Below are positions 13,301 to 61,300 of a stretch of 64,000 nt of DNA, one piece after another. Made by a program: the position numbers and the translations under genes. Every line of letters begins with the position of its first letter. The first letter of the stretch is position 1. This stretch comes from Ostrinia nubilalis (taxonomy: Eukaryota; Arthropoda; Insecta; Lepidoptera; Crambidae). Where the stretch lies: assembly GCF_963855985.1 (NCBI RefSeq), contig NC_087114.1, forward strand, positions 645,001 through 709,000, given 5' to 3'. Below the pieces are notes generated by a model. That model did not search any database, was not told the DNA's origin, and worked only from the letters and a program-made list of their open reading frames with translations.

Positions 13301-16300
13301 TAGGGATGGTACACTAACCTGCGTCTGGTTCCCCGATGATGGAAGGGGGCTGGTGGAATTAGTTCGTGTAATTCTTTCGCATATTCTCCGAAGTGATTTT
13401 TTCCCTGAGTAGCTTTTTAAGACATCCACGAGAGGAGTGGTCGTAATATCTGCTGCTGACAGCATTAGTAGACTCGTGAAGTCATGAGTCAACATCTTCC
13501 TTCATCATCATCATCATGTTTGAACGTCACCTATTTGGCCCTAAGTCGCCTTTAAGACATTCACGGGAGGAGTGGGCGTGGCCCTAAGCCAACAATCAGC
13601 TGACACCTGCTGTGACAGCAGTAACAGACTCGTCATCATTAGTGAGTAACTCGCGCTCGTATCCACAAACATTACTATGAGGTCTCACAGTGCCCGTGGA
13701 CGAACAGGGTGACACACAAACCGCGTTCGATTTGCTGCTTCACTTAAGCAAGCATCGTTTGTGAGTACGGGCGTCAGACCCGCATGGTGACGTCCATGAA
13801 GTCGGTGACGGTGAACTCGTCCAAGCTGCTGGCCACCGCCAAGTCCGTCAGCCAGGACCTCGCGCGGCCCAATGCCAACAACCAGCTCGCCGCTGCTGCC
13901 AGAGCTGTCACTGACAGCATTAATAGGCTGGTGAGTGCTCATCATTGGTCATCTTCATAATCATCTTCTTTTTTATATGAGACAGGAGGCAAACGAGCAG
14001 ACGGTTTACCTGATGGTAAGTGATTACCGTCGCCCATAGACACTCGCAGTCCCAGCAGCGTTACAGGTGCGTTGCCGGCCTTTAAGGTGAAGACCTTTCA
14101 TCTTCATTTTCTTTATATAATCATCAGCTTTTTAAGACATCGTTAGTCGTCATCATTAGTGAGTTAGGACCTCACGCGGCCAAATGCCAACAACCAGCTC
14201 ACCGCTGCTGCCAGAGCTGTCACTGACAGCATTAATAGACTGGTGAGTCGTCATCATCATCATCTTCATCGACATCATCATAACAAGGCAGGTGTTTGAC
14301 CACAATCGCACCTGATGTTGAGTGGGATGCAGTCTAGGATGGTACATATCTGCCATATAAGTGCCTATTCACTCTCGCCTTGAAAAAGCCCGGATTATAG
14401 TCTTCGGGAAAGACAGCAGCAGGCAGCGAATTCCAGTCCCTAGCTGTTCGCATTATAAAAGAGTCATCGAAACGCTTAGTGCGAGCTGGTGATATTTCGA
14501 CAATGTAGGGATGGTACACTAACCTGCGTCTGGTTCCCCGATGATGGAAGGGGGCTGGTGGAATTAGTTCGTGTAATTCTTTCGCATATTCTCCGAAGTG
14601 ATTTTTTCCCTGAGTAGCTTTTTAAGACATCCACGAGAGGAGTGGTCGTAATATCTGCTGCTGACAGCATTAGTAGACTCGTGAAGTCATGAGTCAACAT
14701 CTTCCTTCATCATCATCATCATGTTTGAACGTCACCTATTTGGCCCTAAGTCGCCTTTAAGACATTCACGGGAGGAGTGGGCGTGGCCCTAAGCCAACAA
14801 TCAGCTGACACCTGCTGTGACAGCAGTAACAGACTCGTCATCATTAGTGAGTAACTCGCGCTCGTATCCACAAACATTACTATGAGGTCTCACAGTGCCC
14901 GTGGACGAACAGGGTGACACACAAACCGCGTTCGATTTGCTGCTTCACTTAAGCAAGCATCGTTTGTGAGTACGGGCGTCAGACCCGCATGGTGACGTCC
15001 ATGAAGTCGGTGACGGTGAACTCGTCCAAGCTGCTGGCCACCGCCAAGGCCGTCAGCCAGGACCTCGCGCGGCCCAATGCCAACAACCAGCTCGCCGCTG
15101 CTGCCAGAGCTGTCACTGACAGCATTAATAGACTGGTGAGTGCTCATCATTGATCATCTTCATAATCATCTTCTTTTTTATATGAGACAGGAGGCAAACG
15201 AGCAGACGGTTTACCTGATGGTAAGTGATTACCGTCGCCCATAGACACTCGCAGTCCCAGCAACGTTACAGGTGCGTTGCCAGCCTTTAAGATTTAAGAC
15301 ATCCAAGAGAGGAGTCGTGATATCTGTTACTAACAGCATTATAGATCGTTTCATCCACTCGGCCGCGCCCCAGCAATGTGTGGTCCCGGTCGCGCGGGGT
15401 GCGGGGAGTGTGGTCCGAGCAAGCCGTAAGGCATTACTGTAGTGTGCGTGTGCACTCATGGAGCATTCAGCGTGTACCGATAACACTCAAACATTAGCGG
15501 AAGAATGGTGGGGCGCGTCCGAGTGGATGAATTGATCTATAATAGTGAGTCAACATCTTCATCATCATCATCAACATGTTCAAACTTCACCTATTTAGCC
15601 CTAAGTCGCCTTTAAGGCATCCATGGGAGGAGTGGACGTGGCTCTAAGCCAACAATCAGCTGACACCTGTTGTGACAGCAGTAACAGACTCGTCATCATT
15701 AGTGAGTAACTTGCGCTCGTATCCACAAACATTACTATGAGGTCTCACAGTGCCCGTGGACGCACAGGATGACACACGAACCAATCACAGAGCTCTATTC
15801 AACACTGTGCGTTCGATTTGCTGCTTCACTTAAGCAAGCATCGTTTGTGAATACGGGCGTCAGACTCATGGTGACGTCCATGAAGTCGGTGACGGTGAAC
15901 TCTTCCAAGCTGCTGGCCACCGCCAAGTCCGTCAGCCAGGACCTCACACGGCCGAATGCAAACAACCAGCTCACCGCTGCTGCCAGAGCTGTCACTGACA
16001 GCATTAATAGGCTGGTGAGTGCTCATCATCATTGGTCATCTTCATTATCATCTGCTTTTTTTTAATATATGACAGGAGGCAAACAAGCAGACGGATTACC
16101 TGATGGTAAGTGATTACCGTCGCCCATAGACACCCGCAGACCCAGGGGCGTTACAGGTGCGTTGCCGGCCTTTAAGATTTAAGACATCCAAGAGAGGAGT
16201 CGTGATATCTGCTACTGACAGCATTATAGATCGTTTCATCCACTCGGCCTTGCCCCAGCAATGTTTGGTCCCGGTCGCGCGGGGTGCGGGGAGTGTGGTC

Positions 16301-19300
16301 CGAGCAAGCCGTAAGGCATTACTGTAGTGTGCGTGTGCACTCATGGAGCATTCAGCGTGTACCGATAACACTCAAACATTAGCGGAAGAATGGTGGGGCG
16401 CGTCTTCGTGGATGAATTGATCTATAATAGTGAGTCAACATCTTCATCATCATCATCAACATGTTCAAACTTCACCTATTTAGCCCTAAGTCGCCTTTAA
16501 GGCATCCATGGGAGGAGTGGACGTGGCTCTAAGCCAACAATCAGCTGACACCTGCTGTGACAGCAATAACAGACTCGTCATCATTAGTGAGTGACTCACG
16601 CCCGTATTCACAAACACTATGAGGTCTCACAGTGCGCGTGGACGCACAGGGTGACACACAAACCAATCAGAGCTCTATTCAACACTGTGCGTCCGATTTG
16701 CTACTTCACTTAAGCAAGCATCGTTTGTGAATACGGGCGTCAGACCCTCATGGTGACGTCCATGAAGTCGGTGACGGTGAACTCGTCCAAGCTGCTGGCC
16801 ACCGCCAAGGCCGTCAGCCAGGACCTCGCGCGGCCCAATGCCAACAACCAGCTCGCCGCTGCTGCCAGAGCTGTCACTGACAGTATTAATAGGCTGGTGA
16901 GTGCTCATCATTGGTCATCTTCATATATCATCTGCTTTTTATGACATCGTTAGACGTCATCATTAGTGAGTTAGGACCTCGCGCGGCCCAATGCCAACAA
17001 CCAGCTCACCGCTGCTGCCAGAGCTGTCACTGACAGCATTAATAGACTGGTGAGTCGGCATCATGATCTTCATAATCATCTGCTTTTTAAGACATCGTTA
17101 GTCGTCATCGTTAGTGAGTTAGGTAGGTCCTCAAGCGGCCCAATGCCAACAACCAGCTCACCGCTGCTGCGAGAGCTGTCACTGACAGCATTAATAGACT
17201 GGTGAGTCGTCATCATCATCATCATAATCATCAACATGTTAAATTATATTGTAACTGTATGTTTCCCAAAAAACAAATAATAATAATAATAAATACACTT
17301 TATTGCACACCAAAGATAAGAACAGAAAGAAAAGGAACACACAAGGTACAACTAGGCGGTCTTATCGCTATGAAGCGATCTCTTCCAGACAACCTATGGT
17401 GAGGACAGTTACTTAAAAAAAAATATGAACAAATAAATAAATAAATGTGTAAATTTAAGATATTTGTCCCTAAATCGCCTTTTAAGACATCCACTGGAAG
17501 AGTGGTCGTGATATCTGCTGCTGACAGCATTAATAGAATCGTGAGTCAATATCATTAATCATCTTCATAACCATCTGCTTTTTAAGACATCTTTCATCGT
17601 TATCGTTAGTGAGTTAGGTAGGACCTGACGCCGCTGAATGCAAACAACCAGCTCACCGCTGCTGCGAGAGCTATCACTGACAGCATTAATAGGCTGGTGA
17701 GTCATCATAATCATCTGCTTTTTAAGACATCTTTCATCGTCATCGTTAGTGAGTTAGGACCTCGCACGGCCGAATGCCAACAACCAGCTCACCGCTGCTG
17801 CGAGAGCTGTCACTGACAGCATTAATAGGCTGGTGAGTCATTATAATCATCAACTTTTTAAGACATCTTTCATCGTCATCGTTAGTGAGTTAGGTAGGTC
17901 CTCAAGCGACCGAATGCCAACAACCAGCTCACCGCTGCTGCCAGAGCTGTCACTGACAGCATTAATAGGCTGGAGAGTCATCATAATCATCTGCTTTTTA
18001 AGACATTGTTAGACGTCATCGTTAGTGAGTTAGGTAGGTCCTCAAGCGACCGAATGCCAACAACTAGCTCATTGCGGCTGCGAGAGCAGTCACTGACCGC
18101 ATTAATAGGCTGGTAAGTCATCATCATCTTCGTAATCATCAAAATCCGTCCCTAAGTCGCCTTTAAGACATCCGCGAAAAGAGTGCTGCTGATATCTGCT
18201 TTAGTAGACTCGTGAGGTCATGAGTCAGCATCTTTATCATCATCAAGTTTGTATTTTACCTATTTGGCCCTAAGATTTCTTTCACATTAAGAGCGCTTTA
18301 GGCTTTTTTGTCGCGCGACTGCAGCGCGACTTAGAAGCACTACAACCGCGCGACAAAAATGCCTATTTATGAAAGCGCTCTTAGGCGATTTAGCAGCGCG
18401 ACAGACGCGCTGCCGAAAATTACATACCATGTGACAGCTGATTCCTCCCTTCACATTACAAAAACGTAATTATTTGTTACCATAGGGGTCACTTAAAAAT
18501 TAGGAATTGATGGTGAAAACGGACATTAGTGTCGTTTCAACGCTGCGACAAGACAACGTTGTTCGAAACTAAAGACGCTAGTATAGGAGGTCCCTCAATG
18601 TTGTTATTTGTTGCTGTAACAGACCTCTTTTTCCAGGTGGACGTGTGCACAGAAGCGGCTCCAGGTCAAAAAGAGTGCGCGGCGGCCATCTTGCGTATCC
18701 GAGGCGCCGCGCCGCTGCTGGCCGCGCCCACGCAGCCGCTGTGCGAGCTCGGGTACTTCGCCTGCCTGGATGCTGTGCTGGAGCAGAGCAAGGGACTCAG
18801 TGAGTAACGTAACACAGAGTAGGATAGCAAATTCAACAGTTTATTCAGTACGTAGGCCCTTTCCAGGGCACTTATACACGTTCCAAATATAGCTTTCCCT
18901 ACCACCACTTCGGGACAAATGGGCTGGTGCTGAGAAGAAGTGGCAGAAGAAACTCAATCACCTTTTTCAGCATAGAGCAGAAGGACGCAGAAGGAATGCG
19001 CGGCGACCATTTTACATCCAGTAGCCCACGCAGCCGCTGTGCGAGCTCGGGTACTTCGCCTGCCTGGACGCTGTGCTGGAGCAGAGCAAGGGACTCAGTA
19101 AGTAGCGTAGCGCAGAGCATAACGAGACTATTCCCACCACTCGTTCCCACCGCTGCAACTTCTGTGTAGCCAGGATCTACAGCTTGACCGCCAGCAACCC
19201 AACCAGTGAATGTCAAGCACACGAGTAAAAGAAGTTATCATTATAATTTCAGCCACAGGACGTCCACTGCTGAACATACGCCTCCCTTAATCATTCGATA

Positions 19301-31300: not shown

Positions 31301-34300
31301 TCAGCATTTATTGTCACGAAGCAGTGGTAGAGTTAAGCTTCAACCACACCAAGAGTTAAGCTTCAACCACACCAACGCGTTCAGGTCGCCATCGCCGACG
31401 CGATCATAGGCCAATGACAGGTCGCGCGACCCATGACAGTTCACGCGACTTGTCATTTCCCTATGATCGCACCGTGGTCGATGCCGATCTGCACGCGTTG
31501 GCCTGGTTGAAGCATTAAAGTAATACTGGATCGTGTTAAAGAGTTTCCTTTGCAGAAAAAATTACTTATGACTTTCTGTTTGCGCAGGAAAACCGCGCCC
31601 GCTGCGCCGCTGCAACCGGTCCTTTGCTAGAAGCGGTGCGTGGACTAGTCTTGTTCGCGGACCGACCCGAGTTTGCCAGCGTGCCCGCTCGAGTTTCACA
31701 GCAAGCACGCGCTTCGGTGGAGCCTATACTGCAGTGCGGCAGGTTAGTAATACTCATAATCATCATCATTTCAGCCACAGGACGTCCACTGCTGAACATG
31801 TCTCTCCCAATGATTACCACATAGGTAGGTTTGTTCCCGTGTTAAGCTGTGTGGTGACGGCAGAGTAGAATACATTTGTCACCAACCCCTACTCTTCCCG
31901 CGGGTGTCGTAAGAGGCGACTTAGGGACTACACATCAAACAGAGAATGGGCAGCAGCGCTCTCTGAAAAACATCAATCTTTTAAACTGCGATCTCCAACC
32001 CGCCTGCCAAGCGTGGAGATTATGGCAAAACCCTCCACTATAGTGGAGGAGGCTCATAGTCCAGCAGTGGACTGTAAACGGATGTTGATGATGAGGTTTG
32101 TTCCCGCCCTGTGTCTAGCGCTTTCCTGCTGCCTTTATCTCCACTGCAGGAGCACAGCACGACGCTCTAATTCACCAGAGGCAAAAGCAGAATTAGAAAT
32201 ACATTCCCAACGTAGGCGTGATGATTTTAGGAGGTCTGGTTTGCTATTTAGCCGTGGAGCCTATATTACAATGTGGAATGTCAGTGACACTGGAGTACGA
32301 AGGTCAATGACAATAGAGCTCGTAGGTCAGTGACACTAAAGTATGACGTGTGAACCGCGCCCGCTGTGCAAGCGCAACCGGTCCTTTGCTAGAAGCCGTG
32401 CGTGGACTCGTTTTGTTTGCGGACCGACCCGAGTTTGCTAGCGTGCCCGCTCGAGTTTCACAGCAAGCACGCGCTTCGGTGGAGCCTATACTACAATGTG
32501 GCAGGTTAGTCATATATCATCAGGTTATTGAGTCTCCATTTCAGGAGCAAAACCGTGTCTGATTCACCAGAGGCAAATGCAGGATTTGGCTTATACTTCT
32601 TGCGTAGGCCAGATGAATTTAGGAGGCCTGGTTCAAGCTTGTACTTCTGTGGAGCCTATATTGCAGTGCGACAGGTCAATAACCATCATCAGGGATTTGG
32701 AATACTCTCCACGTTGGCCAAGTTTGATTGAGAAAACTTGATGCTCGCATATTTTACTCTTAGTTGCTTTTTACGTTATTCACAGCAAGATGGAGGATGA
32801 GATGCTAACTGTGTGTAAAATTATTGATTATTGACCTTCAGATTTAAATGTATTGCGAATCACGTGCTAATTATGTTACGTGATACATTTGTACAGTTAG
32901 AGTTTTGCCCTACGTCCAATAATTGGACGTACCAATACAAATCCATAAAATAGGGATCAAGAAAATTTTAAAGAGAAATCAGATGAAGGAATTCTGATCG
33001 ACTATCTATCGTACAAATAGGTCTGCGACTATTTTGGACAGTATTTTCACGGATTTGGATCGGACACAATGCGAAACTTACGCCCATTAAAATTAGTTTC
33101 AAAACTACATTGTTCTGTACAACACTAGCCAGCCAGTCAAATATAACCCCTATTGTTTCCAACAGGAGCATAATATCGTCGTCCTGCTCGATGCTGGAAG
33201 CAGCCAAGGTGCTCGCTCTATCACCACAGGAGCGAACGCAGTGGCAACAACTAGCTGCGCATAGCAAGACCGTATCCGACAGCATCAAGGCGCTCGTCAC
33301 CGACATCCGGTAAGTTAATTATAAGATTTTAAACTTTTCGACTTAAATAGAAAGACGCCTTGACGCCAATAAAAACCCAACCAGTGAAGGACATCAACGA
33401 CCTCCTTAAGGTGCCAGGGTAACACCTGGCAGGGTACAGCACTACCAGGGGCGTAGCTACCGCCGTATCTGCCGTATCAATTATACGGGGCCCCCGGCCC
33501 ACGGGGGCCCCCAAGGTGCGTAAGCAAAAATTAATAAAAACTTCCCAAATTTTTAAAATTTCAGAAATGAGAAAGGTATGAAAAAGCTATTTCTTTTGTC
33601 CCGAGTAAAGCAACAACAACATTTTTTTCTTTTTTGAGAAATCTTTACTTTTCCTAAGGGCCCCCAAACATATCTTTATACGGGGCCCCGCCAAGGTACG
33701 CTACGCTTCTGAGCACTACAGGAAGCACGCTCGCAGCGCACCACTTAAGTTTGTAAAGTCAGCTATATCGGTTACTTGCGTAGGCGCAAGCGTAGATACT
33801 TTTATGTCAATTTGCATCCACTTGACACCATACAATTACTCGGCTTATATGACGACTAAAATGCGTGAAAAGTATCTATGTTTTGTGCATCCCTAAACCA
33901 GAGGTTCCCAAACTTATTTTGTCTAACTAACCCATTTTTCACCTGTTAAAAAACACTAACTTCAAACGCCCCGATTTTTTTTCTTTGTAACTTACCGCCC
34001 CCCTTTAGGCCTGCAGCGCCCATAAGGGGCGTTATCGCCCACTTTGCAAAAGGCTGCATTAAGCGGTTGTAATAGATGTTAATTTTGTGTGCAGGGACAA
34101 GGCGCCAGGTGTCAAGGAGTGTACGGCAGCTCAAGAGACACTAGCGCGGCTGTTACGAGAACTCGACACCGCCGCCATCCAGGCAGTTGGACAGGAGCTC
34201 GCGCCGCGACAGGGGAACACGTGGCAGGGTACGTGTGGACAGGGTACACTAGGGACAGGCGTGAGGAGTGCACGGCAGCTCAAGAGACACTAGCGCGGCT

Positions 34301-37300
34301 GTTACGAGAACTCGACACCGCCGCCATCCAGGCAGTTGGACAGGAGCTCGCGCCGCGACAGGGGAACACGTGGCAGGGTACGTGTGGACAGGGTACACTA
34401 GGGACAGGCGTGAGGAGTGCACGGCAGCTCAAGAGACACTAGCGCGGCTGTTACGAGAACTCGACACCGCCGCCATCCAGGCAGTTGGACAGGAGCTCGC
34501 GCCGCGACAGGGGAACACGTGGCAGGGTACGTGTGGACAGGGTACACTAGGGACAGGCGTGAGGAGTGCACGGCAGCTCAAGAGACACTAGCGCGGCTGT
34601 TACGAGAACTCGACACCGCCGCCATCCAGGCAGTTGGACAGGAGCTCGCGCCGCGACAGGGGAACACGTGGCAGGGTACGTGTGGACAGGGTACACTAGG
34701 GACAGGCGTGATGAGTGCACGGCAGCGCAAGAGACACTAGCGCGGCTGTTACGAGAACTCGACACCGCCGCCATCCAGGCAGTTGGACAGGAGCTCGCTC
34801 CGCGACAGGGGAACACGTGGCAGGGTACGTGTCGACAGGGTACAATAGGGACAGGCGTGATGAGAGCACGGCAGCTCAAGAGACACTAGCGCGGCTGTTA
34901 CGATAACTCGACACCGCCGCCATCCAGGCAGTTGGACAGGAGCTCGCGCCGCGACAGGGGAACACGTGGCAGGGTACGTGTGGACAGGGTACACTAGGGA
35001 CAGGCGTGAAGGAGTGCACGGCAGCGCAAGAGACACTAGCGCGGCTGTTACGATAACTCGACACCGCCGCCATCCAGGCAGTTGGACAGGAGCTCGCGCC
35101 GCGACAGGGGAACACGTGGCAGGGTACGTGTGGACAGGGTACATACAATAATGTATAGGGTACATGCTGGTAGCGAACGCGATGAATCTTTGGATCTCTA
35201 TAATAACTGGCATGGCATTTATTTATCCGCACCGTAACGTAATCGCCTCGCCTCGTAATTGACAAATAAATAAATAAATAAAAATCATTTATTTGCCAGA
35301 ATACGGTTACAAGGTTATAGAGAAAGAAGTTTCCAACATATTCTATCGTACATACGATGTGCAAATATTACAAAAAAATACAGTTATGTTTTTAATATTA
35401 AAAAGTACCTAGTATCATTATTATTTGAATGTCATGCAAATGTCAGAAAATGATTATGAATTATTTAATTAACACAACGCGCTAAAGACGATAAGGTATT
35501 GTTAATAAGTCTGCTATGAGCTTAAAGTTGATATAGATTACTTTCGGTATCCTTGGTTCGGATATCGGGATACGATACGATACGTCTGATGCTCGCTGTC
35601 AGAGTACTTCTCAGGATTCATAATAACTACGAGAGTGCCGAATCTTTTGAAATTAATAGTCCCTTAGTCTATGACTCGTTAATCCTTAAAAGAAATCTAT
35701 AACATTGTCAATTCCACAGGTTACTCGGAGCAGATCGAGAATAGCGCCACAGAAATGCTAGAGCGCGTGGAGCCGCTTCGAGTGGCCGCTATAGGCGAGG
35801 CTGAGAACTTGGGACACGCCGTCACGCAGCTGGTGAGTTAACTTACCTTCGCTTCATGTTAGTCACAGGACGTCCACTGCTGAACATAGGCCTCACCCAA
35901 TGCTTTCTTCAAGCTAGGATGCGCGCCGTGATAAAGTCTTTTCGATGATTTTAGACGTCAAAAGTAGAGGCTTATCGTAAAATCGATGAAAGGGCGTGAT
36001 AATGCCTTATCGTGACTTACAGATCGCCCGGTTGAAAATTGGCTGCATTCAACAGGGACAGGACTTCTTTCCATTTGAGTTAGCGCGATATTAATTAAGG
36101 TGGCGTACGACAACCACTAGTGGTTGTGATCGGTGGCTCGTTGCTAACAGGGTTGCATGATTTAAATCAAGTTGATTTAAATCATGATTTAAATCACGAT
36201 TTTTATTACATGATTTTTTTAAATTTTTCATTGATTTAAATCAATGATCGAAAATGGAATTAATGAATGGCTGGGAGTTAATATTAATCAACTGTAATGT
36301 TCGAAAACAATGTTAATATTAGGTGTTAATGTATGAAATTGTCGTTTTGTATGGAGAATCTGAAAATTTTAATTTTTCCATACAATCACATTTGCGATTT
36401 TTCAGATAACCACATAATTAATTTTTTTTGGCGGTGTTGCCTGCTCCATACATCAATTCTACGTAAATAAAAATGTATTCCGTAAGAAAAACTAAAGAAA
36501 TGATCGCAGAACCTAATAAAAATCAAAAAAATCGTGATTTTTATCCACCCTGGTTGCTAAAATGTTAAGCATACTTTTTGCTATCGAACCATATTCATAA
36601 CCCATCGTACAAGCTTTGCTTAGTTTGGGACTAGCGGCGCAGTATAAAATGTCCAAGGATATTTATTTATTTACTTATTCATTGATTGCTTGTATATCAA
36701 GACAAAAATGTTTCCATTTGCGCAGCCTCTTAAAAACTATTAAAAGAAGTGTTCCATGTATTGTAACGTGTGTGTTCTTGCAGGTATCATACGCAGAAGC
36801 AACGTGCACGGGCGCAGTGAGCCTAGCGTCGCTAGTGACGCAATCGGATGCACAGGCGGCGCTGCTACAACACACTCGCACTGTATTAGAGGCAGCCATG
36901 GCGTTATTGCGAGCCGCCGCCGCTGCACGCGGGAACCAGAGGGTAAGTGACGAGATAGTGACGCGATTGTGACGTGACAGTGACGCAATAGTGGCGTGAC
37001 AGCGACAGGGTTATTTGGATGACACAACGGCGACGCCACACCAAGGAGGATGTGTTAGCACGTATAGGATGGGTCAAAGAGGCGTGATAGTGACGTGACG
37101 GCGAGACGGCAACAAAGGGGCGACGTGACATGATTGTAATGGTGACGTGATAGTGACGCAGTGAGCCTAGCGTCACTAGTGACGCAATCAGATGCACAGG
37201 CGGCGCTGCTACAACACACTCGCACTGTATTAGAAGCTGCCATGGCGTTATTGCGAGCCGCCGCCGCCGCGCGAGGCAATCAGAGGGTAAGTGACGAGAT

Positions 37301-46300: not shown

Positions 46301-49300
46301 CAGGAACGTCACTATTCGTGCAATCCTATCAATGAAGTACGACATTTTCTGGTGCTGATTTTATCGCCATAAATTATGAAACTTGATAGTCATGGATTTG
46401 ACTGACAGCTGTCCGTCAAATTCCCGCCCCGCACCCCGCACTGTACATATTTTGTTCGCGATGTCTGTTCTATACGTAGTAATATTACTTCAATGGAGTA
46501 GTGGCGATTTTATATCTCTCTAACTAAAGAAATCACGAAAATTTTCCGATTTGGAAAAAGCAACGTCTTTTATGGCATTTTCAACTACTATAGGTGCAAT
46601 AATATTGTAAAATTTTGACAAGACAGCGTATGAAAGAGTAGCTATATAAGTGTATTAATTTTCTCAGACGGCGAAGTCAGCCACCGACGCTAGTCGACTG
46701 GTGCAACTAGGCAGCGAGATGGTGCACAAGTACGAATCATTGGCGCAGGACAGCTTGGGAGCCGCCGCTACTACGCCCAACGCAGACGTCGCTAACAGGT
46801 GAGCTGATAGTGACCTTATATTTAGCTGAATAAGGTTCAGAGTGGAAGCAATTCGTCACGAAAAGTGTCTACGTTGAGTGGATAAAACAACTTATGACTT
46901 GTACAGTCGCGGAATGAAAAGGTTCGTCACCTTAGTGTCGGTTTTCGCTTGCACTAGGTACTGTAAGAGTCAAACCTGCCAACATAACAGTGCAAGAAAC
47001 AGTGCTGCTAACATTTAAATAAATATGACGTTTGCTAACGAATAAGGTTTTGCTTGTTTATTTTTCTATCCCATCAATGCAATGCAATGATGACATTGAC
47101 CAATTGACAATAGTTTTTTTTATTTAATAGAAATAATAATGGCAGCTTGAACCAACAAGAAGGTTTTAGTTCATCAATCATAATAATCTTCTTGACAAGA
47201 TAAATAGTCAAACAACTTTGATTTGAATAATTTTGAACTTTACTGACGAACAGTTAAAGATTATTTTCTCTAACTCGAGATTATTCTGTAACATAGTTTC
47301 AAAAGGTAATATGTGCTCGCGATTCGTTGAAGGAATCAATTTGAAAACTGACGAACCTTTTCATTCCGTGACTGTACATAAGGGTGGTTTTTATGTCGTG
47401 CGGATTTCATCACGGACGCGGGGATAGAAACACCCTAAGACAGAATACTAAGTTTGCGCACCTTGATTCAAAATACACACGAGTCACCAACAGATGAGGC
47501 ATCTACGTCGCCGTTAAACAGAATACACGAGTGTATTAATTGTTCTACTATCCACAATGAGTCGTAATTTATGACTTTCCCTAATTTACTAAAGCCCGGT
47601 CCGTGAGCACGTAGAAATTTGTCCAATGACCCCTAGCTCAAGGAGGGATGGGTTCCTTATCGCTTGCGCGTAATTATATTGCTGTCGCGACTGTGCAACT
47701 GGCACCCGCAGTGAGTGTGCGAGCGCGATAGCAACATAATTACATCCGAGCGATAAGGATGGGTAGCTTGGGGTCATTGGACAAAATTCTACGTACTCAT
47801 GGACCAGACTATAGCGACAAAGGATGGTGATGATGACTTACACTCCCCACACTGTCCTGACGATTTTTCCCTCAGTTGAATTGTGGAAATCCATAGGAGA
47901 ATTGGAGGGTCCTATTCTACTCTGCCGAAACCACACGGCTATAGAAGCTGTCTTTACGCCCAATAAAAGCTAACAGAAGCTTGTTGAACAATAATGTGAA
48001 TTATTTGGTCGTTCGTTCGTTCGTTTCAGCCAAATGACGTTCACTGCTGGACAAAGGCCTCCCCCAAGGTTTTCCACAATGAAGGGTCCTGCGCTGCCCG
48101 CATCCAGGCTCTTCCCGCGACCTTTACCAGATCGTCGGTCCACCTAGTAGGAGGCCTGCTCACGCTACGTCTTCCAGCCCGTGGTCGCCACTCGAGAACT
48201 TTCCTGCCCCAACGGCTATCGTCTCTATGTGTGTCAACGGGCTATATGCCCCGCCCACTGGCACTTGATTTTAGCAATTCTGCGAGCAATGTCGGTTATT
48301 TTGGTTCTCCTACGGATCTCCTCATTTCTGATTCGATCACGCATTATTTGGTCAAATCCACATAATTTATTTGCATTGCATTCCATGTGTGGTTACATAC
48401 TAATTCATCTGTTCTTCTTACAGCATCCGCTCCGCAGTGGTGGAGCTAGGAGAGAGTGTATCGGAGTTAGTTCGTGCGGGAGGCCACTGCCGACTCGCTG
48501 CGTTGCCGCAGAATCAACGAGCCGTTGCGCAGCACGCACAGCGGGTCAGCGAGAAGGTAGGACAGAAATAAAGACATTACAGTAGAGAGATAAGACGTAT
48601 TCAGAAAGTTGGGCGTATCCAACAGCGCCTCCTAGGTAAGAAACAGACATGGGCGTATCCGGCAGTATCTTCTAGCGTACGGGCGTGTCTAGGTGGAAGG
48701 ACAGTCCTTATAGTCTAGGTGGAAGGACAGTCCTTATAGTCTAGGTGGAAGGACAGTCCTTATAGTCTAGGTGGAAGGACAGTCCTTATAGTCTAGGTGG
48801 AAGGACAGTCCTTATAGTCTAGGTGGAAGGACAGTCCTTATAGTCTAGGTGGAAGGACAGTCCTTATAGTCTAGGTGGAAGGACAGTCCTTATAGTCTAG
48901 GTGGAAGGACAGTCCTTATAGTCTAGGTGGAAGGACAGTCCTTATAGTCTAGGTGGAAGGACAGTCCTTATAGCATCCCATAGTGTAAAAACAGAGACAT
49001 GGGATTATCCAGGGGGGGGGGGGGAAGCAGATCCTCCTCCTATGCCACTTATACATACGCAAAGTCTTTGAGCCGGCTGAAGTTCGCCTCAGACGAAACA
49101 AGATCGGGGTAAGATGCAGGGCCGCGTGTTTCCAGAAAGATCCTCTGCAGCAGCTCCTGACTAAGGTCTTCGTAAAGGGGGCAGTACCAAAGATTGTAGT
49201 GGAGATCTTCCTCGCTCTCACCATACACGCAGCTCCCGTCGTCTCTAGTATCCAAGAGAGCAGGGCAGTTCCTATACTATCCGCTCCGCAAAGCGTGTCA

Positions 49301-52300
49301 GAACTAGTTCAGGCGGGAGGCCACTGCCGACTCGCCGCGTTGCCGCAGAATCAACGAGCCGTCGCGGAGCACGCACAGCGCGTTAGCGAGAAGGTAGGAC
49401 GTGGTAAAAAGATTATGAGACATGTAGAGGCTCTTTAAGAGCAAAATGACGATTTGTAGGAACTATTTATTAGTCTAAACAAATAAAGAAATTTTGACTT
49501 TGACTTTGACTTTTTGTGGGATTGTAGACATTATTGCAAGGAGATAGAGACGAGGGGGTATCTAGGGGGAAGATCAGTTCTTACAGGGTTCTATAGCGTA
49601 AAAACAGACGTAGGCGTATCCAATAGCATCTTCTAGCGTAGAAACAAAGGAATGGGCATGTCTATGAGGGAGGATGTTGCATAAGACATAAATTAATTAT
49701 TGTATGTGTATGAATTATTGAATTTATGGATAAAATGGATAAATGAAACGACTTTTTTTCAGCTGTCAAAGTGAAGAAGTGATTTTATTTTGTTTTGTAA
49801 GAAAAAGTAAAAAAACATTAAAAACTCTTTTGTTGGTTCTCAACAGAGGACAGTCCTTATAGCATCCCATAGCGTAAAAACAGAGGCATGGGTGTATCTG
49901 TACCATCTCCTAGTGTAGAAACAGAGAAATGGGTGTGTCCAGGGGCGGGATAGATTTTACAGAGACAGGGGTGTAGAAGGTGTCTTACAGCGTCCAGGAT
50001 AGAATCAGGAGCAGAGATATATCCAGAAGGGAGGACAGTTCTTTCGGCATCTCATAGCATAGAAACAGAGACAGGGGTCTCGAAATGGTACGCTCCTCCA
50101 TACCAACCTTATAATTTTCGCCCGTGTCCAACCACAGGCCTAAAAATCTGATTTACCCCCTTTTGGCCAGACTGTCCAGAAAAGCGTGGGTACATCGTAG
50201 AACTGCTATTGCTATTTCGTGGCTACAAATACTGCCATCGTTTTGGCATGACTACACAGCACTGCCATCGCTACAGCGTGGTCATGTCGTATCACTTTTT
50301 GTGGTTCTATTCTATTCTACTTAGCTCACTAACATTGAACATTGTCTCCAGGTGATAGCAGTGCTCAGCGCTCTCCAATCGTGTTCCCGCGGCACTCAAG
50401 CTTGCATAGACGCGGCTGCCACCATCGCTGCCATTATTGGAGACCTGGACACCACCATCCTGTTCGCTAGTGCTGGTGAGTGGCTTCCCGAGTGGCTATC
50501 CCACAGAAGAGATCAGAGGTGGAATTGTGTAAAGCAATCGTATTGATTTGACAGTTCAAAACGTATGATAAAATGTTTTTATCAAGGCGTTTGACAGAAT
50601 TACGTTTTGAACTGTGAAATGAATACGATTGCTTTACACAATTACATCTCTGGGCGGAGATAGTATGTGGAGCAGAGATGTACATTGTACATAGACTATG
50701 TTTTTCCACCAGCTTGGCTAGGCCGCGAGCATGCGACGAATCATTTGTGTTTCCTAGTCGATTTCCCCGCTCCACTTCTCGGTTTTGTATGAATTTTAAA
50801 CTAGCTCGCAAGTCGCAACTATCTGCCCATTGTACTGAAGCGGAGATATTGAAAATGAAAATATTTATCAAACAATACAATTACCAAAAAGACAGACCTC
50901 CAAACTAGGCATTGCCTGTCCTGTGGAGGAAAGAATAACGATTCATTAATTTACAATGCAAATGTTTTCGTGGATGTTTAGGGTGGTTGCTATAGTAATT
51001 GGCCTATACATAGTTATTGGCATATTGGAGAGACAAAAATATTTACTACATTGGACTGCGTATTGCTCAGAAAAAATATTTGTCCCTTTTCTCTCTTAAT
51101 AACTTCCATTAGGCTTGTTTCTTTTCATTTTAGGCAAGTTGACCAATAACTATGTATTGACTAATTACTATAGCGATCACCCTACCTCATTTTGCTCTTG
51201 GCAATCGGCAACACATGGTCTGGATAACTAGATGTCCTATTGTCTTTTTGTATAACTCTGTGGTTACTGTTTTAAGTCCGTATTACCATGTTATTATTAC
51301 AGACCGAAACTCAAACAATTTTCAAAGCCTAGATTGATGCTTTTGATTGGTTTTTGAAAGCCAGCCTAGGTTATCGTCTTAAATTCGACGTTGAATCGTA
51401 AGACAGAATCTATGATTATGATCTTATTTTGAGCTTCAATCTGTTAAGTAAATTTTATTATGTTACGAACAAAACCATTCAAAAATTCTTATTCCAACAG
51501 GCACTCTCCACTCCGAGAAAGAAACAGACACCTTCTCAGACCACCGCGAGAGCATCCTGAAGACGGCCAAGACTTTAGTGGAGGACACCAAGACGCTGGT
51601 CGGCGGCGCCGCCGGCTCGCAGGACCAGCTCGCCGCCGCCGCCGCTGCCGCCGTCAGCACTATTGGTACGTCACTAACCTCTCTCTCTTTCTATCTCTCT
51701 TTCTCTCACACTTTCCAGTGGCGGATTTACCAGTAGGTGGATTTACCAGTAGGCTGATTAGGCTGGCAGCGGTCTGCGTCCAGCGCTTCCCTGCTACCTT
51801 TACGATGTCTGTACCTTGTAGGTGGACGTCCCACGCTGCGTTTTCGTCAACATGGAAAGCATTGGGGAGGCCTATGTTCAGCAGTGGACGTCCTATGGCT
51901 GAAATGATGATGATGATGATGATTAGGCTGAAGCCTAGGGCGGAAAAGTTTAGTCGCAGTTGGGGGAGGGGACGCGCAATCCACGGACCGGTAAACTTAG
52001 CGCGAACGGGTAGTAATGCGTTTCAGAGCAGGCTTTTTGGATAGACGGTTTGGGGAAGCCTGATGCTCTTAGGAAGAGTCCGGGAAAGATTAATGTCTCG
52101 ATCTCAGATTCAGTTGTTAAAAGTTATTGAGTTTCTTCCGCCACTTCTTCTCAGGACCAGCCCATATGTTGTCCCGAAGTGGTGGTAGGGCAAGCTTTAT
52201 TTGGGACGCGTATAAGTGCCCTGGAAAGGGCCTATGTACTGAATAAACTATTTGAATTTAAATTTGTCGTGGACTAAACAGGGCAGATCTGTCACCATTT

Positions 52301-55300
52301 CACATCAAATCAATACCAGAACTTAGCTAGTGACTAGTAATAACTAGTAAGATGTCCGTCTGTCGCCATAATAACAATATTAACCGAATTAATAATTTTC
52401 TTTTTTTCTTCAGTCGGTTGAAAAATGTAGTCTACTAAAGCCTCTCTCGCTCGCACACTCACTGCGGGCGCCCGTCGCACAGTCGCGACAGCAATATAAT
52501 TACGCGCGAGCGATAAGGATGGGTAGCTTGGGGTCATTGGACAAAATTCTACGTGCTCACGGACCAGGCTTTACACAAACACAATAAATATCTTTAAATG
52601 TATTTTATCCTGTATTTTGTGTGATAAAATAAATCATTTATTTATTTAAAAAAAGCATATGGCTAAATGCTATTTAAAGTCCCTCTCTCACATTTAAATA
52701 AAACGCAAACTTTAAATTCTTACACAATGCTCATTCTGGTCTTTCCCCAACAGTGCAACTATGCGAAGTCGTCAAGCAAGGCGCCATGTCCCTCGGCTCC
52801 AGTAGCCCCGAGTCCCAAGTTCTATTACTACACGCGGCACGCGACGTCGCCGCAGCATTGAGAGACTTGGCCGCTGCCACCACGGCGGCCAGTGGCAAGC
52901 ACCACCACCACCCCGATATGGCACGGCTGAAGCATGCTGCTAAGGTAAGGCTATGTAGGAGTGCTAGGTACGGAATGAGTGAGTCACTGAAGCCTTCTTC
53001 GCACTGGTCAATTTAGTCGCGTAACTCACTTTTAGTAACTCAATTACTCGCTACAAAAAAATACTCGACTGGTAAAAAAAAAATACGCGAACAAGGCTTA
53101 AGAGGGGCAGCTATAAAAGTCCGTCTGTGGTACTAGGTATAGACTAAGGCCCAGTTTTTGATGCGTAGTTATAATAACCAATAGTCAAATTTAACAGATG
53201 TCAAATGACAAGTGGTTAAAATTAAATATCAGAAAAAAATGTTTTTCGAACAATGGTTAGCTTGACTTTTAGTAATTTTTAGTAATTTTTTTTAACTATT
53301 ATTGATTTATTTAAGGCACAGCTACAGAGAGAGAACAAACAATAACAATACAATTAACACAACAACATAGCACAATATTAATTCTGAACTCCGATTATTA
53401 GTTTACATTTTGTTAATATTTAACCATTTGTAGCAAAATTTTACAATTAGTTATTTTAACTATGAATTTGATTCGAAATCCATTTTTTTCTGATATTTAA
53501 CCACTTGTCATTTGACATCTGTTAAATTTGACTATTAGTTATTTTAACTATGAATCAAAAAAACTGGGCTTAAGTAGTTATTACAAGGAAGGTAACGATG
53601 AAAACCAGTCACGTGATCTACTTAAACAGCGAGCTAGTGGTGACATCTGGTGACTACCTGGCCATCTGTTGTAGCTAATAATTAGAATGGTCTATGGGCT
53701 ACAAGTTAGAAACCCAGCACGTGTAAGTCGCCTTAATTTGACACTTTTTTATTGTTTTTGTGACTGTTTTTAATTTATTAAAATTTTGGACTTAATATAA
53801 CTACGTGGTTGAATATCCGAGTTATTGCCGTATTTTTGTTTATATCGCAATTTAGCTAGTACTTATTATTATTCTGTGGTATAAATAAGTAACTTTGTTA
53901 ATATATTACATTAACATATTTCAATGATTTACTTAGTTTTAGCACACTAATTGTTATTTTGATTAATGATGACTAAGACACAATACTGGCAACTATATGA
54001 CACGCCTTTATTCCAAATTTTACTTCTGCTGTATGTTTAATTTTGGTATAAATTAAAACTTAAATCTACTATGTTTAAGATGCCTACAATATGGTATTCT
54101 TTGGAACTTAACAATGATTGCAAAATGTCATTTTTATTGCTTTTCAACCTTAAGAAAAGGTCTTAAAGATCTAAATACAATGACCCTTACATTCTTCTAT
54201 TGCAAGGGTTATACAACTCAATATTTCTTTCAATAGACTTTCTAGCATATCTCACAATCCAAATTGTCTCTCTGCCCTGCTCAAAATTGGTAACTTATAT
54301 TACCTTTTCAATAGAGTCTAAATTATCCTAATACCAAAATTAAAAATCGTCAGAACTCACCATGTACAGATCAAAGTGTGCCCATGTGTCGCTCATCCGT
54401 GTCAATATTGGACTTTCCCGACTAATGCCAACTTTTTGTAGCGGCTGGCGGACCACACGATGCGGTGGAGCCTCCCCCTAAAGCGTAACACGCTGCCGCG
54501 CCAAGCGAAACGGCTGTCAGTTCATCTCTCTCTAAAGCCCGACTACAACTCGTGCGATTCCGAGACCGATCTCTTCCAATCTGACCAAGAGGAAGAATTG
54601 CTCAAGCTTCTGGACTATTCCAGTCAAGATGATGATGTTTCTCCATCAGTCTTCCACGATAATTGTGAAGAAGTGACTGCGTACATCGAAAATTTAATGA
54701 AGAATCCAACAAAAACTGTCATAGATGACGATGTCAATGACAGATACAATATGGCGGCTAGGAATAGCTTGATAGATATGGATTGGCGCGTGCTTAAGTA
54801 CGGTGAAAATATACTATTGGGTGAAATTAAAAAATTGGTTGATTTCGTTGGTGATGTCTTCGATAAGCAAGAAAACAAGCGAAAGAGAGATGTCTTGTAC
54901 AGACTTAAAGCTAATAATGACCTGGACAACGAAATGCAAAGGCTTTCTCAAGTAATAGAGGATATGGATTCAGAAATTGTTGAGACAACAGTCACGACGG
55001 TCACTAAAACAGAAATAGTACCGGTGAAGAAGCCAAAGACCGATGACGTTAAATTAACCAGTCCAGTGTTCAAAGTCAATAAAGTTAGACCAGTGAATCT
55101 TTCAATCAATTTGGATGTCAAATCAGAACCAAACACACCTCTGATGAGTCCCGAACAGAGGCAAAAAGATGAGTCCACTGAACTAGTTGTCAAACCTGAC
55201 GTCAAAACAAAAGAAGTCAAATTGGACTTTTGGAAAATGTTCAAAGACGACTCGGAGTGGTGGAAGGGACTGGCCAAAAGAAATTTGGAAAAAATGGAAG

Positions 55301-58300
55301 AAACTAAACGAGAATTGGCCAGATTTAGCGGCCATGAACTAGTTTTAGGCGAATTCCAGAATGAGATAGATAGATTTGAAAAAGAGAAGGTTACGTTGCA
55401 GTCGTTTATCGATGAAGTCGACAAATCGAAAGCTGTGAACAAGGACTTGGAATACGATAAGAAATACGAAGATATGGTCTTGAAACTTATTGAATTCGCA
55501 AAGAAAGATTTCATTTACAAAGGTTTCGATCCTCTGATCGAACAGTTGAAGCAGTTGTCAAACATAAAAATCGAACATCGTAGAAAGAAAGTCAATATAC
55601 AAGACATCATCAACATATACACTCAAATAGATATATCCAAATACACATACGAAGAATTGTGTCTACTAGAAAAGTATTATAAAGAGATCATCCGCAAATA
55701 CAAAACGGAGCATTTGAATAAAGAAAACATCATACCAAGAGAGCCAAGCTACGACAGAGAGGTTGAAAACAGATCAGCGCCGCCATCTTACCACAGAAAC
55801 GTCATTCTAAACATCCATTCCAGTCAAAACCTGACCAAAAACATCAACTCCTACTCAAATTCAATGATAGCTCACACGAATTCTCTCGAAAGATCTAGAT
55901 CCAACCAGCACAAGTCTAGAAACAACACAGAAATCTTCGACCTGACCAGAACTTACCCTATGGAATACTACGCGAATAACTGGTGGTCGATATACGAAGA
56001 CATATTGAAGAGTCGCGAGCACCAATTCGGATCTATCGACAACTGGTGGCGATTCTATGAAGCTATACTAAATAAAGAAGACACAAATGATGAGGAATTA
56101 AGAAGACTCCGCGCTGTGGTTGGATACAGGAACAGTCTTCGAAGACCGAACAGTAGACTGGGTGATCTCATGAAGAAAATAGACGAAGTGAAAACGCAGA
56201 GTTTCCGAGAAGAAGAAAACGTTCGGAGCACCAACGATCAATCGGTTAGGGCATGGTGTTCGCTTGAGTGGTTAACTTCATTCATGCTGTCTTATTAATT
56301 TTGTTATGCTGATGTTTTGGTCATATTTGACAGCTATAAGTAGGTTCTTATGTTTCTAAAACGTTGGCCCCAATTTTGGTCCCAACGCATCTAGTCCAAC
56401 GTATTGGATGTAGCAAATAGTATTGGCCCCAACGTTGGGACAAGCTATTCAGTAGCGTTTGGTCCAACATTGGGGTCTACTTGTGAAGTTGGTCTTAGGT
56501 ACGACAAGTAATTTTTTATTAAAGTCATTTGATCTACTTCTGGACAGAGTGCCCCCGGTGATTTATTTGTCATTTCATTTGATAAGGCCACCGTGTGTCA
56601 TAGCTAGATTGGCAGACATTTCGGCAACCGGGGGTAAGTATATCTGTTTCATTCTATAAAGCTTTCTATCTCTTTTCCTCTTCTTTAAAAGATGTAAGAT
56701 TTTTTAATTACTTTTGTCTTTGAATAGATCAGTAATTTGAAGTTTTGACTCGAATATTATCAAAAACATCAGCAACTGTCACTTTCCTGTCATTAAGCCG
56801 CGCGCCCGCGGCGTCTAAACACATTCCAATGCAACTCTCCACAGATCACCATGGTTACCGGTGGAGCTTACTCCGCTTGTCGTACAATAACCAAACACCA
56901 TAAGCTTTCATTTATTTAAAGTCCAATATTGACGTTTATATTGACGATATACGCTTCACCATATAAATATTTTATTTATTTATATCTCTTTTTTGTATGC
57001 AGCTTTATTGGTTGAACGTGGGATGTATTGGAAATCATTTTTAAGTAAAAAAGATCTTATACAGCTTTAAGTTATGTAACGGTTGTATAACATTTTCTCA
57101 ATGAAGTGTTCTTAATAAATACATTGTCACGTAGCATGCATGGGGTATATGAGACGTTCACCCGGGCCCTTTCTCTCTCATACAAATAATCACGAAAGAA
57201 GCATCTTGCTTCGTGGCAATGTTATGAACACTTACCGGCCAAAACATTCAATACATCCTCCGTAAAACCAATAGCTGCATAACGGTGTAATTGAAAGCTT
57301 CTGGGTGACCGCTATACAGCATGCGATGCTTTCGACGTCCGCACTGGTTTTTATCATACGTTCTAATATATACGGGAGCCCGAAGCTTTTTGTGTCGAAT
57401 AATGTTGGACAAAAGGTCTTGTATTTGAAATCCTTTAGATACTCCTAGCTCTATAATATTGTATGTGAAATATACAGAGCTGGTGTACCATGTCATGATA
57501 GCTGCTAAAATTGTTATTGTATGTACAACAATGTTTTCTCTCGTTTGTGTTACTTCACAGAATTTTACAGAGGTACGGACGATGAGCTTTCAGAACCCTT
57601 AGCTGTATAGTGCATATTGTGGCCACATAATATGAATGTCTCTGTATTACCTGTTATAATACGATTGTCCAGGGCCTTCTTATGCAAGGGGAAGGGAGAG
57701 TAAATCCTGGTACCTCTTGAAACTCTTTTGTCTTTCTCTCGAAGATAGTGCTACTGTTATAATAAAATTATATTTTTGGTTGATTTGTAACAATAAATAG
57801 ATGGATGTGAATTGTTGTACCGTCGGCAACAGTGTTAACTATCCATTGCCTGTCATGTCGTCTCGTTCTATCGCAAAGAATGACCATTTGATGAGAGAGA
57901 AAGCAAAAACGGAAATTGATAGTTAACAGTGTGGCCGTGTGTGCAAGTAACATCATAGAAAGTTTCATTATTTTGTCACGGAAGACCCCTATTGTATCAA
58001 CTTTCAAAGACTACTCAATTCTCCGTCTACGTTTGTGACCTTTAGTGCTACCTATAGTTGTTAGTTTCAAATCTACCAATTTGTTAGAACATAATATACT
58101 TTTTAGCAGCTGGATTGACAGTTTCTTTTTTTCTTCTACATGTAAATATGAATGTTGTTTACGTATGTTTGTTAGACACTAATATATTATTATGTGAACC
58201 TTTTGTCGCGTTGTTTTGCACAGTTAAGTTATAATAGTTAACCCATCACGGTGTCACGCGGTCATGCGAGCGCTGGATCACGCGGGTTTGCTTGGATGGG

Positions 58301-61300
58301 AGAGATGACAGACGAATTTTATTAAAATTAAGTATTTTGTAGGTTTCTTTGAGATTCAAAGTCGAAGTATTTATTTACCGTTATTGTGATGGCTATAAAC
58401 GTTACTGGCTCTAAAAGTAAACGTTTTTATATAAAGAAAAGGTATTTTTTCGGTATTGTGAAGGGTTTTGACAAAATAGAGAATAAGATAGACAATAGCT
58501 GTTGGAAATTCCAAAATTCGTAAAAATACATCTGTAATCTACAATTCTCTGTGGAAAAATCTAAAATTCGTAAAAATACATCTGTAATCTACAATTCTCA
58601 GTGGAAAAATCTAAAATTCGTAAAAATACATCTGTAATCTACAATTCTCTGTGGAAAAATCTAAAATTCGTAAAAATAGTTATCTATCTAATTGAGATCC
58701 ATAAAAACTCTCATTCATGCCTAAATCTTGCAATGCAGCAACAGACTTGAGAAAAAAAAGTTAATGCTCATGTGCCTTATATATATATGCGTTCATGTCA
58801 TTAATTATGTACAAAAACTATTATTACTGATACCTTTTCCGGTTGTCAAATTAACAAAACTTCTTCAAAATTCGTCTGTCCATCTCTCCCCGCCCACTCC
58901 ACACCTCCAATCCAATACTGACCAATGACGTCATTGCGCAGGTGATGGTGACCAACGTGACGTCACTGCTGAAGACCGTCAAGGCTGTGGAAGACGAGCA
59001 CACCAGAGGCACCAGGGCCCTCGAGTCGACCATAGAAGCTATCTCGCAGGAGATTGAGGTGAGTGAATTATGAATCTTGTTGTATAGAAAATAGAGTGCT
59101 AAATAGAGCTCAGTTATTGCTACATTTATAGAGAATAACTGATAATGCTCCTGCAATGTTGGAGCAGTTACGGGCCTGTTCCCACCTCTCTTTCTTACCA
59201 CTGCAACTCCTGTATAAACAGGATCTATAGTTTGACCTCCAAGATAACCCAACCAGTGAAGGCTTAGTAGTTTCGTAGGATGGGTTACTGTAATACTGTC
59301 TTAGAACCCGCATGGAATTTAATCAAAGAAATATAACAGGAACCCAGAATATAATATCGACTTCCCTCTGTTTCAAAACGGCAGACAGGTTTTAGAATGA
59401 GCTAATACACCACGGACAAATTTTTCGTTGTAATACACACTATACAGGCCGCTACCAACCGTGCGATGTGGAAATCATTGGGGGAGGCCTATTTTCAGCA
59501 GTGGACGTCCTGTGGCTGAAATAACGATGATGATGATGACATGCTATATGTCCAGATGTACAATAAAAGTCTATTATTAAGTCACTGGTAGACTATAATG
59601 CGATCCGCTCGGATGTGCCCCAGAAAATGTAATCAAACTTCTTTCTCCCTCAAGGTCCTTCTATCCGACTCGCCGCCTAAAGGCACGGCTACCGCCGAGG
59701 AGTTGGTGCGCTGCACTCGCCAAATGACCACCGCGACTGCTCGAGCGGTTGCTGCCGGTAACGCCAACAAGCAAGACCAGCTCACTGCAGCTGCCAACCT
59801 TGGCAGGAAGACTGTGGTGGACCTGCTGGTGGCTTGCAAGGTAAGTTCGACCGTAGGGATAGTTCCTATAGGGTGTATTTTGGGGTAGAAATGTAGATGA
59901 GAGGAGAAGTTAGTCTGCTAATAAGCAAGATCAGCTCACGGCTGCCAACCTTGAAAAGAAGACTTCTGGATTTGCACCAGTAGATCCAGAACAGTATTTA
60001 AATTGGACCATAGGTATATTGTTTTAGTGTCTTTTGGGATAGCAACGCCTATTTGGCAATAGATCAGGATCATATTAGCTGCTGCTAATTCTGAGAGCAA
60101 GACTTATTAGTGCAAGGTGAGCTAGACCGTCAGGATAGTTGTGTAGGGTGTCTTTTAGAATAGCAAGGTAGAGAAGAGCAGTTAGTGCGCTGCACTCGCC
60201 AAATGACCACCGCCACTGCAAGAGCAGTTGCTGCCGGTAACGCCAACAAGCAAGACCAGCTGACGGCAGCTGCCAACCTTGGCAAGAAGACTGTGGTTGA
60301 CCTGCTGGTGGCTTGCAAGGTGAGTTAGACCTTATAGATCCTGAAATAGGATGTATTTTGTTTGGAGCAGCAACGCTAATAAGAAAGACTAGTCCATAGC
60401 AGCCGTCAACCTTGGAAGGAAGACTGTGGTAGACCTGCTGGTGGCTTGCAAGGTGAGTTCAACCATAGGAATATTGTTTTAGAGTGTCTTTCGGAATAGG
60501 AACACTGTTAGATTGTGGGGATACTGAGGGAGAGTGTCTTTTGGAATGGCAATGTTACTTACAAGCAAGACCAGCTCACGGCAGCTGCCAACCTTGGAAT
60601 GAAGACTACTGGATCTACACCAGTAGATGCAGAAAAGTCTCATTGCTTTAAGTCAAACCATCGGAATATTGTTTTTAAGTGTCTTTTGGAATAGCAACGC
60701 CTACATGGAGTTAGGATCAGGATCAGATATTAGCTGCTGCTAACTCCGAGAGAAATACTCTGGTGCAAAGCGAAGCGAAGCGAGTAACGCGATAGTTTTG
60801 CGTTTGCACTCACTATGTCAACACTGTTGGTTAAAGCCCTGTGGTGCTAACTACAGTACATACGCTCAATTATAGTTGTTCCAATTCACGAAGGCGAGTG
60901 AGCTTTACATTTGTGGTGGTTCACTTCGTTTTTCAAAAGTTTTGATAGACATTACACTATCGTTATGTGCATGTACACCAGCGTTGCCAGACGTCCCGAT
61001 TTTGGCGGGACGTCCCGATTTTTAAATAAAATTTATATGTCCCGCGCGGGACAGGCTCGGTCCCGCTTTTCGGAGAGAGACATTCACTTCACCAGACTAT
61101 TGTTTGAAACGCCATATTATTCTAAAGAATTTTTTTTTTATTTCGATTTTGGTTTATTTATTCTTTTTTTATTCTAAAGACGAATTTAACGATAGAGTAA
61201 ATCTGATTTAAAATATTATTTTTTGTAAAAATTCATTTTCTATGGCTACTTTTGCTATCTATTGTCAAATAAACGTAATTTTAAGTCAAATAAAAAGATA

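Follow-up and report, generated by a model that had tools for sequence, protein, structure and literature searches.

Talin is the main mechanical link from integrins to actin, and its rod is generally regarded as fixed. The closest described variations are the following. In human TLN1, exon 17b adds 51 nucleotides (nt), or 17 residues, between rod domains R1 and R2, and is reported to lower the force at which R1-R2 opens and to enhance vinculin binding (PMC9997659). In Ciona intestinalis, one gene yields Talin-a and Talin-b, which differ functionally through alternative splicing near the C-terminus, and the same paper states that the talin splice forms of Drosophila differ at their C-termini (PMC1702346). 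Among induced truncations of Drosophila talin, one at position 2120 retains more activity in the wing than those reaching up to 2167, on which grounds the authors proposed an inhibitory segment at 2120-2167; activity is lost between 2120 and 2049, the location of helix 50 and the second integrin-binding site (IBS2) (PMC4386027). Here we examine a long open frame inside the talin gene of the lepidopteran Ostrinia nubilalis, in a window that comprises the whole stretch analysed (64,000 nt; contig NC_087114.1, positions 645,001 to 709,000 of the forward strand).

The frame lies on the + strand at 54442-56298 and holds 618 codons and a stop, beginning right after an AG acceptor. A sequence-only reading of the window had described it as open from the acceptor, in phase with exon 25 and closed by its own stop, all of which we confirm, and had interpreted it as either an alternative C-terminus of talin or a nested gene. 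Rather, its first 601 codons very probably form an internal, in-frame talin exon, likely a cassette, that would add about 600 residues to the rod and keep the actin-binding end. Exon 25 extends to 52944, in phase 0 (CTAAG/GTAAGG), and the normal exon after it begins at 58942 (GTG ATG GTG ACC); between them the new exon occupies 54442-56244 (1803 nt, phase 0 on either side). A spliced talin model with the cassette is open across both junctions and meets no stop before the C-terminal end. The border between exon and read-through, TCG/GTTAGG, falls at 56244/56245, and conservation ceases after codon 601; the final 17 codons and stop of the frame are thus probably intron, unless the donor goes unused. 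In the three parts compared (282, 430 and 455 residues), talin assembled from the window's exons shows 99.6-100% identity with that of Ostrinia furnacalis, and the window ends upstream of talin R13. The features around the exon are as follows.

51501..51665, + strand: constitutive talin exon (exon 24 in the numbering of the sequence-only reading), located by tblastn with Eumeta and human talin and by splice-junction scoring.
52754..52944, + strand: talin exon 25, ending ...RLKHAAK in phase 0 with donor GTAAGG; codes part of R11/IBS2 by alignment to solved talin structures.
54400..54416, + strand: intronic TGTCAATATTGGACTTT, 26-42 bases upstream of the cassette exon.
54420..54441, + strand: GACTAATG, resembling a branch point, with the cassette's TAG acceptor, which scores weakly on a small matrix made from the gene itself.
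54442..56244, + strand: probable cassette exon, RLADHTMRWSLP...STNDQS, placed between AAK and VMVTNV of talin from the open frame, its 31 and 15 relatives, the junctions of annotated models and the single genome match.
54556..54630, + strand: cassette residues 39-63, SETDLFQSDQEEELLKLLDYSSQDD, the motif shared with Hymenoptera, containing LxxLL.
56245..56250, + strand: cassette donor GTTAGG, encoding Val-Arg.
56245..56298, + strand: 17 read-through codons and stop, unconserved past Val-Arg.
58942..59058, + strand: talin exon 26 (VMVTNVTSLLKTVKAVEDE...), with a weak acceptor, joined to the cassette or straight to exon 25.
59655..59840, + strand: talin exon 27.

The exon's 3' border follows from where its conservation stops. 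A protein search with the open frame, which scored the 7,996 candidates sharing most words with it, returned 31 relatives at 57-88% identity. In all 32 aligned frames (the relatives and the window), residue 601 is followed directly by Val-Arg, and nothing alignable lies beyond. The two codons are GTTAGG in the window and necessarily GTNAGR or GTNCGN elsewhere, which is the form of a 5' splice site. Because conservation halts at this donor-like pair, we place the exon at 54442-56244. From Val-Arg to the next stop the 32 frames run on for 1-61 codons (mean 17), in tails that cannot be aligned with one another. A second search, among proteins of talin length (about 1074-3416 residues) and scored on the 601 residues, found 15 proteins at 47-66% identity. 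In the genome (495 Mb, 14 candidates scored), the insert has one match at E up to 10. Identity to the window is 60-73% for the insert (11 proteins), compared with 72-83% for upstream talin and 79-87% for downstream talin (10 proteins), so that the insert diverges faster than its flanks and is yet clearly constrained; by these sequence comparisons the frame is far beyond chance. Upstream of the exon, two relatives whose frame extends further in that direction (P0018 and P0022) read CQYWT at the place of the intronic TGTCAATATTGGACTTT. The bases at 54400-54416 are compatible with codons for CQYWT, and this element is possibly a conserved intronic splice signal.

Annotated proteins place the insert within talin. 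It is present in all 15 matches of the talin-length search, from 13 named species: Parnassius apollo, Papilio machaon, Iphiclides podalirius, Phthorimaea operculella, Maniola jurtina (three entries), Brenthis ino, Colias eurytheme, Spodoptera exigua, Aricia agestis, Vanessa cardui, Leptidea sinapis, Plutella xylostella and Pieris napi. The insert runs directly into VMVTN of exon 26 in 14 of the 15 and directly follows AAK or AAR of exon 25 in 14; both junctions are direct in 13 proteins, which come from 11 of the 13 species. In S. exigua (P0042) the insert is instead joined to a later exon, and in the Iphiclides model (P0035) it is preceded by 14 unrelated residues. A fourteenth species, Eumeta, has a model (P0017) that joins ...SAK to RLGDATKRWSLP; it is the only annotated insert-bearing model seen to end in the cassette exon. 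The conservation and the protein and profile searches that the sequence-only reading had proposed gave the insert between the counterparts of exons 25 and 26, 31 relatives, Eumeta talin among them, and no Pfam family matching the insert.

A search on the exons before the junction, with figures from the best 120 of 580 matches, revealed forms without the insert. Among the matches listed, at least 28 rows that are lepidopteran by name pass from exon 25 straight to exon 26, and the insert measures 499-630 residues in rows where both junctions could be placed (641 in Eumeta); the assignment of species names to Lepidoptera, Hymenoptera and other orders is presumed throughout. Both forms occur within single species among the annotated proteins: Maniola (X4-X6 with the insert, X7 without), Aricia (X4 with, X9 without), Vanessa cardui (X7 with, X10 and X11 without) and Plutella. 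Pfam finds FERM, Talin_middle, VBS, IBS2B and I_LWEQ in the skipping Maniola X7 and the including X4 alike, and X4, the sole including model scanned, retains the I/LWEQ domain. The borders and phase of the exon, its conservation, its single genome match and the presence of both forms among annotated proteins are read from sequence. Since the exon is present in public gene models, it is not unannotated. No title listed by our literature searches, which lay largely outside subscription journals, describes this insect talin exon, which we regard as an unusually large new form of alternative talin splicing.

Compared with the described variants, the lepidopteran exon resembles TLN1 exon 17b in being an in-frame talin cassette that enters a rod-bundle helix and lengthens a linker (PMC9997659), and differs from it in size and place, with 1803 nt and 601 residues in R11, near human position 2119/2120. 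In Ciona, by contrast, splicing exchanges the final 78 residues of the I/LWEQ module (PMC1702346), whereas the insert in Lepidoptera lies upstream and the I/LWEQ module is kept.

Both splice sites of the cassette are weak. On matrices made from the gene's other inferred junctions, which are small and biased towards those junctions and to that extent weaken the case, the cassette acceptor scores 0.8 bits against 5.8-17.5 for the 20 other acceptors, and the cassette donor 4.0 bits against 4.5-12.7 for the 21 other donors. The acceptor had been called good in the sequence-only reading, a description that these values contradict. The same reading had found the acceptor of the next exon weak, and here it was right (6.6 bits for exon 26, lower than 19 of the 20), although the exon starts at 58942 and not at 58941. 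Cassette sites below all other donors and acceptors, together with a low-scoring exon 26 acceptor, are as expected of a regulated exon, and inclusion may be governed by regulated use of the two weak sites.

The surprising part is that Hymenoptera appear to share the exon. Among the matches listed, 14 hymenopteran models pass from SAK to VLEQQL...SESEWFVSDQEEELIRLLSASESEQ... in place of VMVTNV. This exon is 43-57 residues long: in 12 of the 14 the protein ends 55-57 residues on, before R13, and Vespa mandarinia and one Apis cerana entry return to MVTNV after 51 and 43 residues, respectively. Isoform X4 of Apis mellifera, with 2209 amino acids, exemplifies the alternative exon. Precomputed Pfam annotation names I/LWEQ for the short hymenopteran talins too. 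The one Apis short form scanned (P0086) matches I/LWEQ best at residues 696-796, away from the end; given this position and a protein end 55-57 residues past the junction, the match is not R13.

A motif of the form SE.(D/E)xFxSDQEEELxxLL is common, with small variations, to the hymenopteran tails and to residues 39-57 of the lepidopteran insert. All 14 tails contain SDQEEELxxLL. Of 45 inserts examined, 32 show the SDQE motif, and 30 of these also have LxxLL; in 12 of the remaining 13 the frame starts later, and Plutella reads SDMEDELIKLL. We scored 16 tails with a profile made from 22 near-complete lepidopteran N-termini of the insert. The 14 hymenopteran tails (11 distinct) reach 18.7-21.8 bits, compared with a maximum of 10.3 among 20,000 shuffled versions of the Apis tail and of 10.9 among about 20,000 talin windows of 55 residues that were sampled, holders of SDQEEEL excluded. 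Against 107 whole talins, the profile puts the 14 hymenopterans on top (E 6.1e-5 to 5.6e-4), with the next at E 0.21. The tail of the hemipteran Clastoptera (EEELIRLL) scores 5.7 bits, which 24 of 20,000 of its own shuffles reach, so that its relation to the motif is only suggestive. The same junction and the similarity in sequence together make a common origin of the hymenopteran exon and the lepidopteran insert likely. The two have in common their junction, the shared motif and their absence from skipping forms in annotated models; they differ in length (43-57 against about 600 residues) and in that the hymenopteran exon is mostly terminal, giving a talin without R12-R13. Because its probable hymenopteran homologue retains it, the acidic motif (about SETDxFxSDQEEELxxLL) may be the oldest part of the insert and a putative binding site.

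As a separate observation, the annotated talins of Frankliniella (P0140), Ceratosolen (P0147) and Clastoptera (P0133) stop 1, 7 and 37 residues after the equivalent of exon 25, and a talin truncated at this junction is therefore modelled in several insect orders.

These comparisons lead to a broader proposal, for and against which we find the case evenly balanced: that insects have an ancient talin splice switch at the R11/IBS2 border, dating back at least to the divergence of Hymenoptera from Lepidoptera, at which bees, wasps and ants would cut off the actin-binding end by means of a short acidic exon and Lepidoptera would have grown the same exon into a docking-capable spacer of about 600 residues, a new segment of the rod. 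If true, the switch would control the connection between the integrin- and vinculin-binding part and the actin-binding end. If the hymenopteran exon truly yields a talin without that end, insects have a naturally occurring equivalent of the Drosophila truncation alleles, and it becomes directly testable whether talin can function in normal tissues when the C-terminal actin site is missing.

The place of the junction in the protein suggests how the insert could act. Aligned to solved talins, the pieces coded by exons 24-27 put the junction near human talin-1 2119/2120 (6r9t chain index). Taking R11 to span 1974-2140, and with the R10/R11 boundaries and the position of the IBS2 helix likewise assumed, the insert would divide the last part, or last helix, of R11 downstream of the IBS2 helix. 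Published work assigns S2127 to R11 and equates IBS2 with R11-R12 (PMC6032930). In most full-length lepidopteran models among the matches listed the junction falls at residue 2124-2160, which would set the splice switch at about the Drosophila 2120 border, that is, where the proposed inhibitory segment and helix 50 appear to meet. The talin2120-type alleles are thus alike in that IBS2/helix 50 would be parted from the following sequence at about the same place; they differ in being induced mutations and not natural splice forms (PMC4386027).

With its last helix interrupted, R11 would be unable to close normally, and the IBS2/vinculin-binding helix 50 would become easier to reach. The insert itself, charged and likely disordered in some parts and helical in others, would serve as a spacer between the part that holds the head, the vinculin-binding sites and IBS2 and the part that holds R12, R13 and the dimerisation helix, and actin force would reach the remaining rod via a slack, docking-competent segment. 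In single-molecule work R1-R12 lie in the force path, and R9-R12 unfold at 10-20 pN (PMC4941051). The AlphaFold2 model of the Eumeta protein has a mean predicted local distance difference test score (pLDDT) of 61.7, with the first bundle, R10, alone modelled well and R11 less so. The last R11 helix, from exon 25, ends 3 residues beyond the junction and gives way to a low-confidence stretch, and the insert consists of long low-confidence stretches with several helical parts. A lineage-wide exon of about a quarter of the length of human talin, set in the second integrin-binding region, would be a natural experiment on the effects of extra slack in the path of force from integrin to actin.

Other explanations of the frame have to be weighed against an internal cassette exon. 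The one with most in its favor, though we judge it improbable, is an alternative last exon, in which translation would read through to 56298 and give a 618-residue tail without R12, R13 and the dimerisation helix. The weak donor, the in-frame stop 17 codons past codon 601, the Eumeta model that ends in this way and the related hymenopteran exon, terminal in 12 of 14 models, all speak for it. A C-terminus in use should be conserved to its stop, however, and none of the 32 frames has a conserved stop or tail: in every one an invariant Val-Arg donor is followed by 1-61 codons of unalignable read-through. Moreover, in 14 of the 15 annotated models the insert is spliced to exon 26 and runs into VMVTNVTSLL. 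The talin exon of the sequence-only reading stands, and its C-terminus lacking R12, R13 and the dimerisation helix is not supported for Lepidoptera, where the stop lies in unconserved sequence; the idea of a terminal exon fits Hymenoptera instead. Still less probable is that the exon is constitutive in Lepidoptera and that the skipping models are annotation gaps. It does occur from Plutella and Eumeta to Papilio and the nymphalids, but the skipping rows (at least 28 among the matches listed), several of which share a species with including rows, and the weak splice sites argue otherwise.

A separate gene lying within the talin intron, with its start at the ATG of 54460 or further downstream, would account for a long open frame with a stop and no known domain. 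We give this second proposal of the sequence-only reading hardly any credence. The codons that precede any ATG of the window (RL[SAGT]D) are conserved, and in the models they come after talin AAK; species differ in having Leu or Met at the second position, so that no start is conserved; and conservation ends at the donor, not at the stop. A transposon-derived or chance frame might be suspected from its size, its intronic position and the lack of a Pfam match, and we regard it as refuted by one match in 495 Mb, by 47-88% identity across Lepidoptera and by a single talin site wherever the flanks are known.

Several points weigh against the internal cassette and the steps built on it. Both forms come from annotated protein models, and such gene models are possibly computed without transcripts. 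The 30 contig proteins among the 31 relatives all continue past the donor, none being spliced at the 3' end, and are for that reason genomic or unspliced. The only Ostrinia model found skips the exon (P0048, Ostrinia furnacalis X4); with the insert the protein would have about 3657 residues, outside the range of the talin-length search, so that its absence there carries no weight. In the Eumeta model the R11 blocks have pLDDT of 54-80 and the junction 49-56, and the insert predicted alone, from the alignment of the open frames, averages 47.7, too low for a fold search; these values for R11, junction and insert make the structural step weak. As for the link to Hymenoptera, hhalign of the hymenopteran against the lepidopteran sequences gives E 3.2e-5 with a probability of 46%, the 14 tails are closely related to one another, the 7-residue tail of Ceratosolen, a fifteenth hymenopteran, does not match (-2.7 bits), and the Plutella insert deviates from the shared motif (SDMEDEL).

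In composition the insert is 35% charged, with 100 Lys and Arg and 109 Asp and Glu. Sequence and profile searches of Pfam, NCBIfam and solved structures found no relative of it. The best match outside talin domains in a profile search of 32 members had E 0.0057 and occurred in 2 of the 32, and the best NCBIfam match to the insert had E 0.19. A stretch resembling a nuclear signal, PAKKPKLE, was considered and dropped, its loose pattern matching only some of 45 inserts. Pairs of tryptophans recur three times in alike settings, at residues 265-290 (DDSEWWKGLAKRNL), 506-530 (ANNWWSIYEDILK) and 527-552 (IDNWWRFYEAILNK), and the latter two settings resemble an internal repeat.

Elsewhere in the gene, partial copies of talin exons are found in introns. 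Within the region 12882-18118, the exon at 12879-13046 recurs in the intron that follows it, in at least four more near-complete copies (13775, 14980, 15868 and 16750) and several shorter ones. They keep the 3' part, with VS coded after INRL as at the real donor, and are missing the acceptor sequence; three of the shorter copies contain a stop. Given the lost acceptor and the stops, they look like decayed tandem duplicates. Copies of the end of another talin exon stand in tandem at 34093-35110, about 149 bases apart, and second, partial copies of talin exons lie in the following intron within the regions 31570-32493, 48416-49396 and 59649-60319. The copy at 60128 has an upstream stop and is nevertheless followed by a donor-like GTGAGT. 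Just past the window (joined coordinates 65996-69316), six partial copies come after the exon for R13 actin binding; they repeat its 3' part, again without the first half of the exon.

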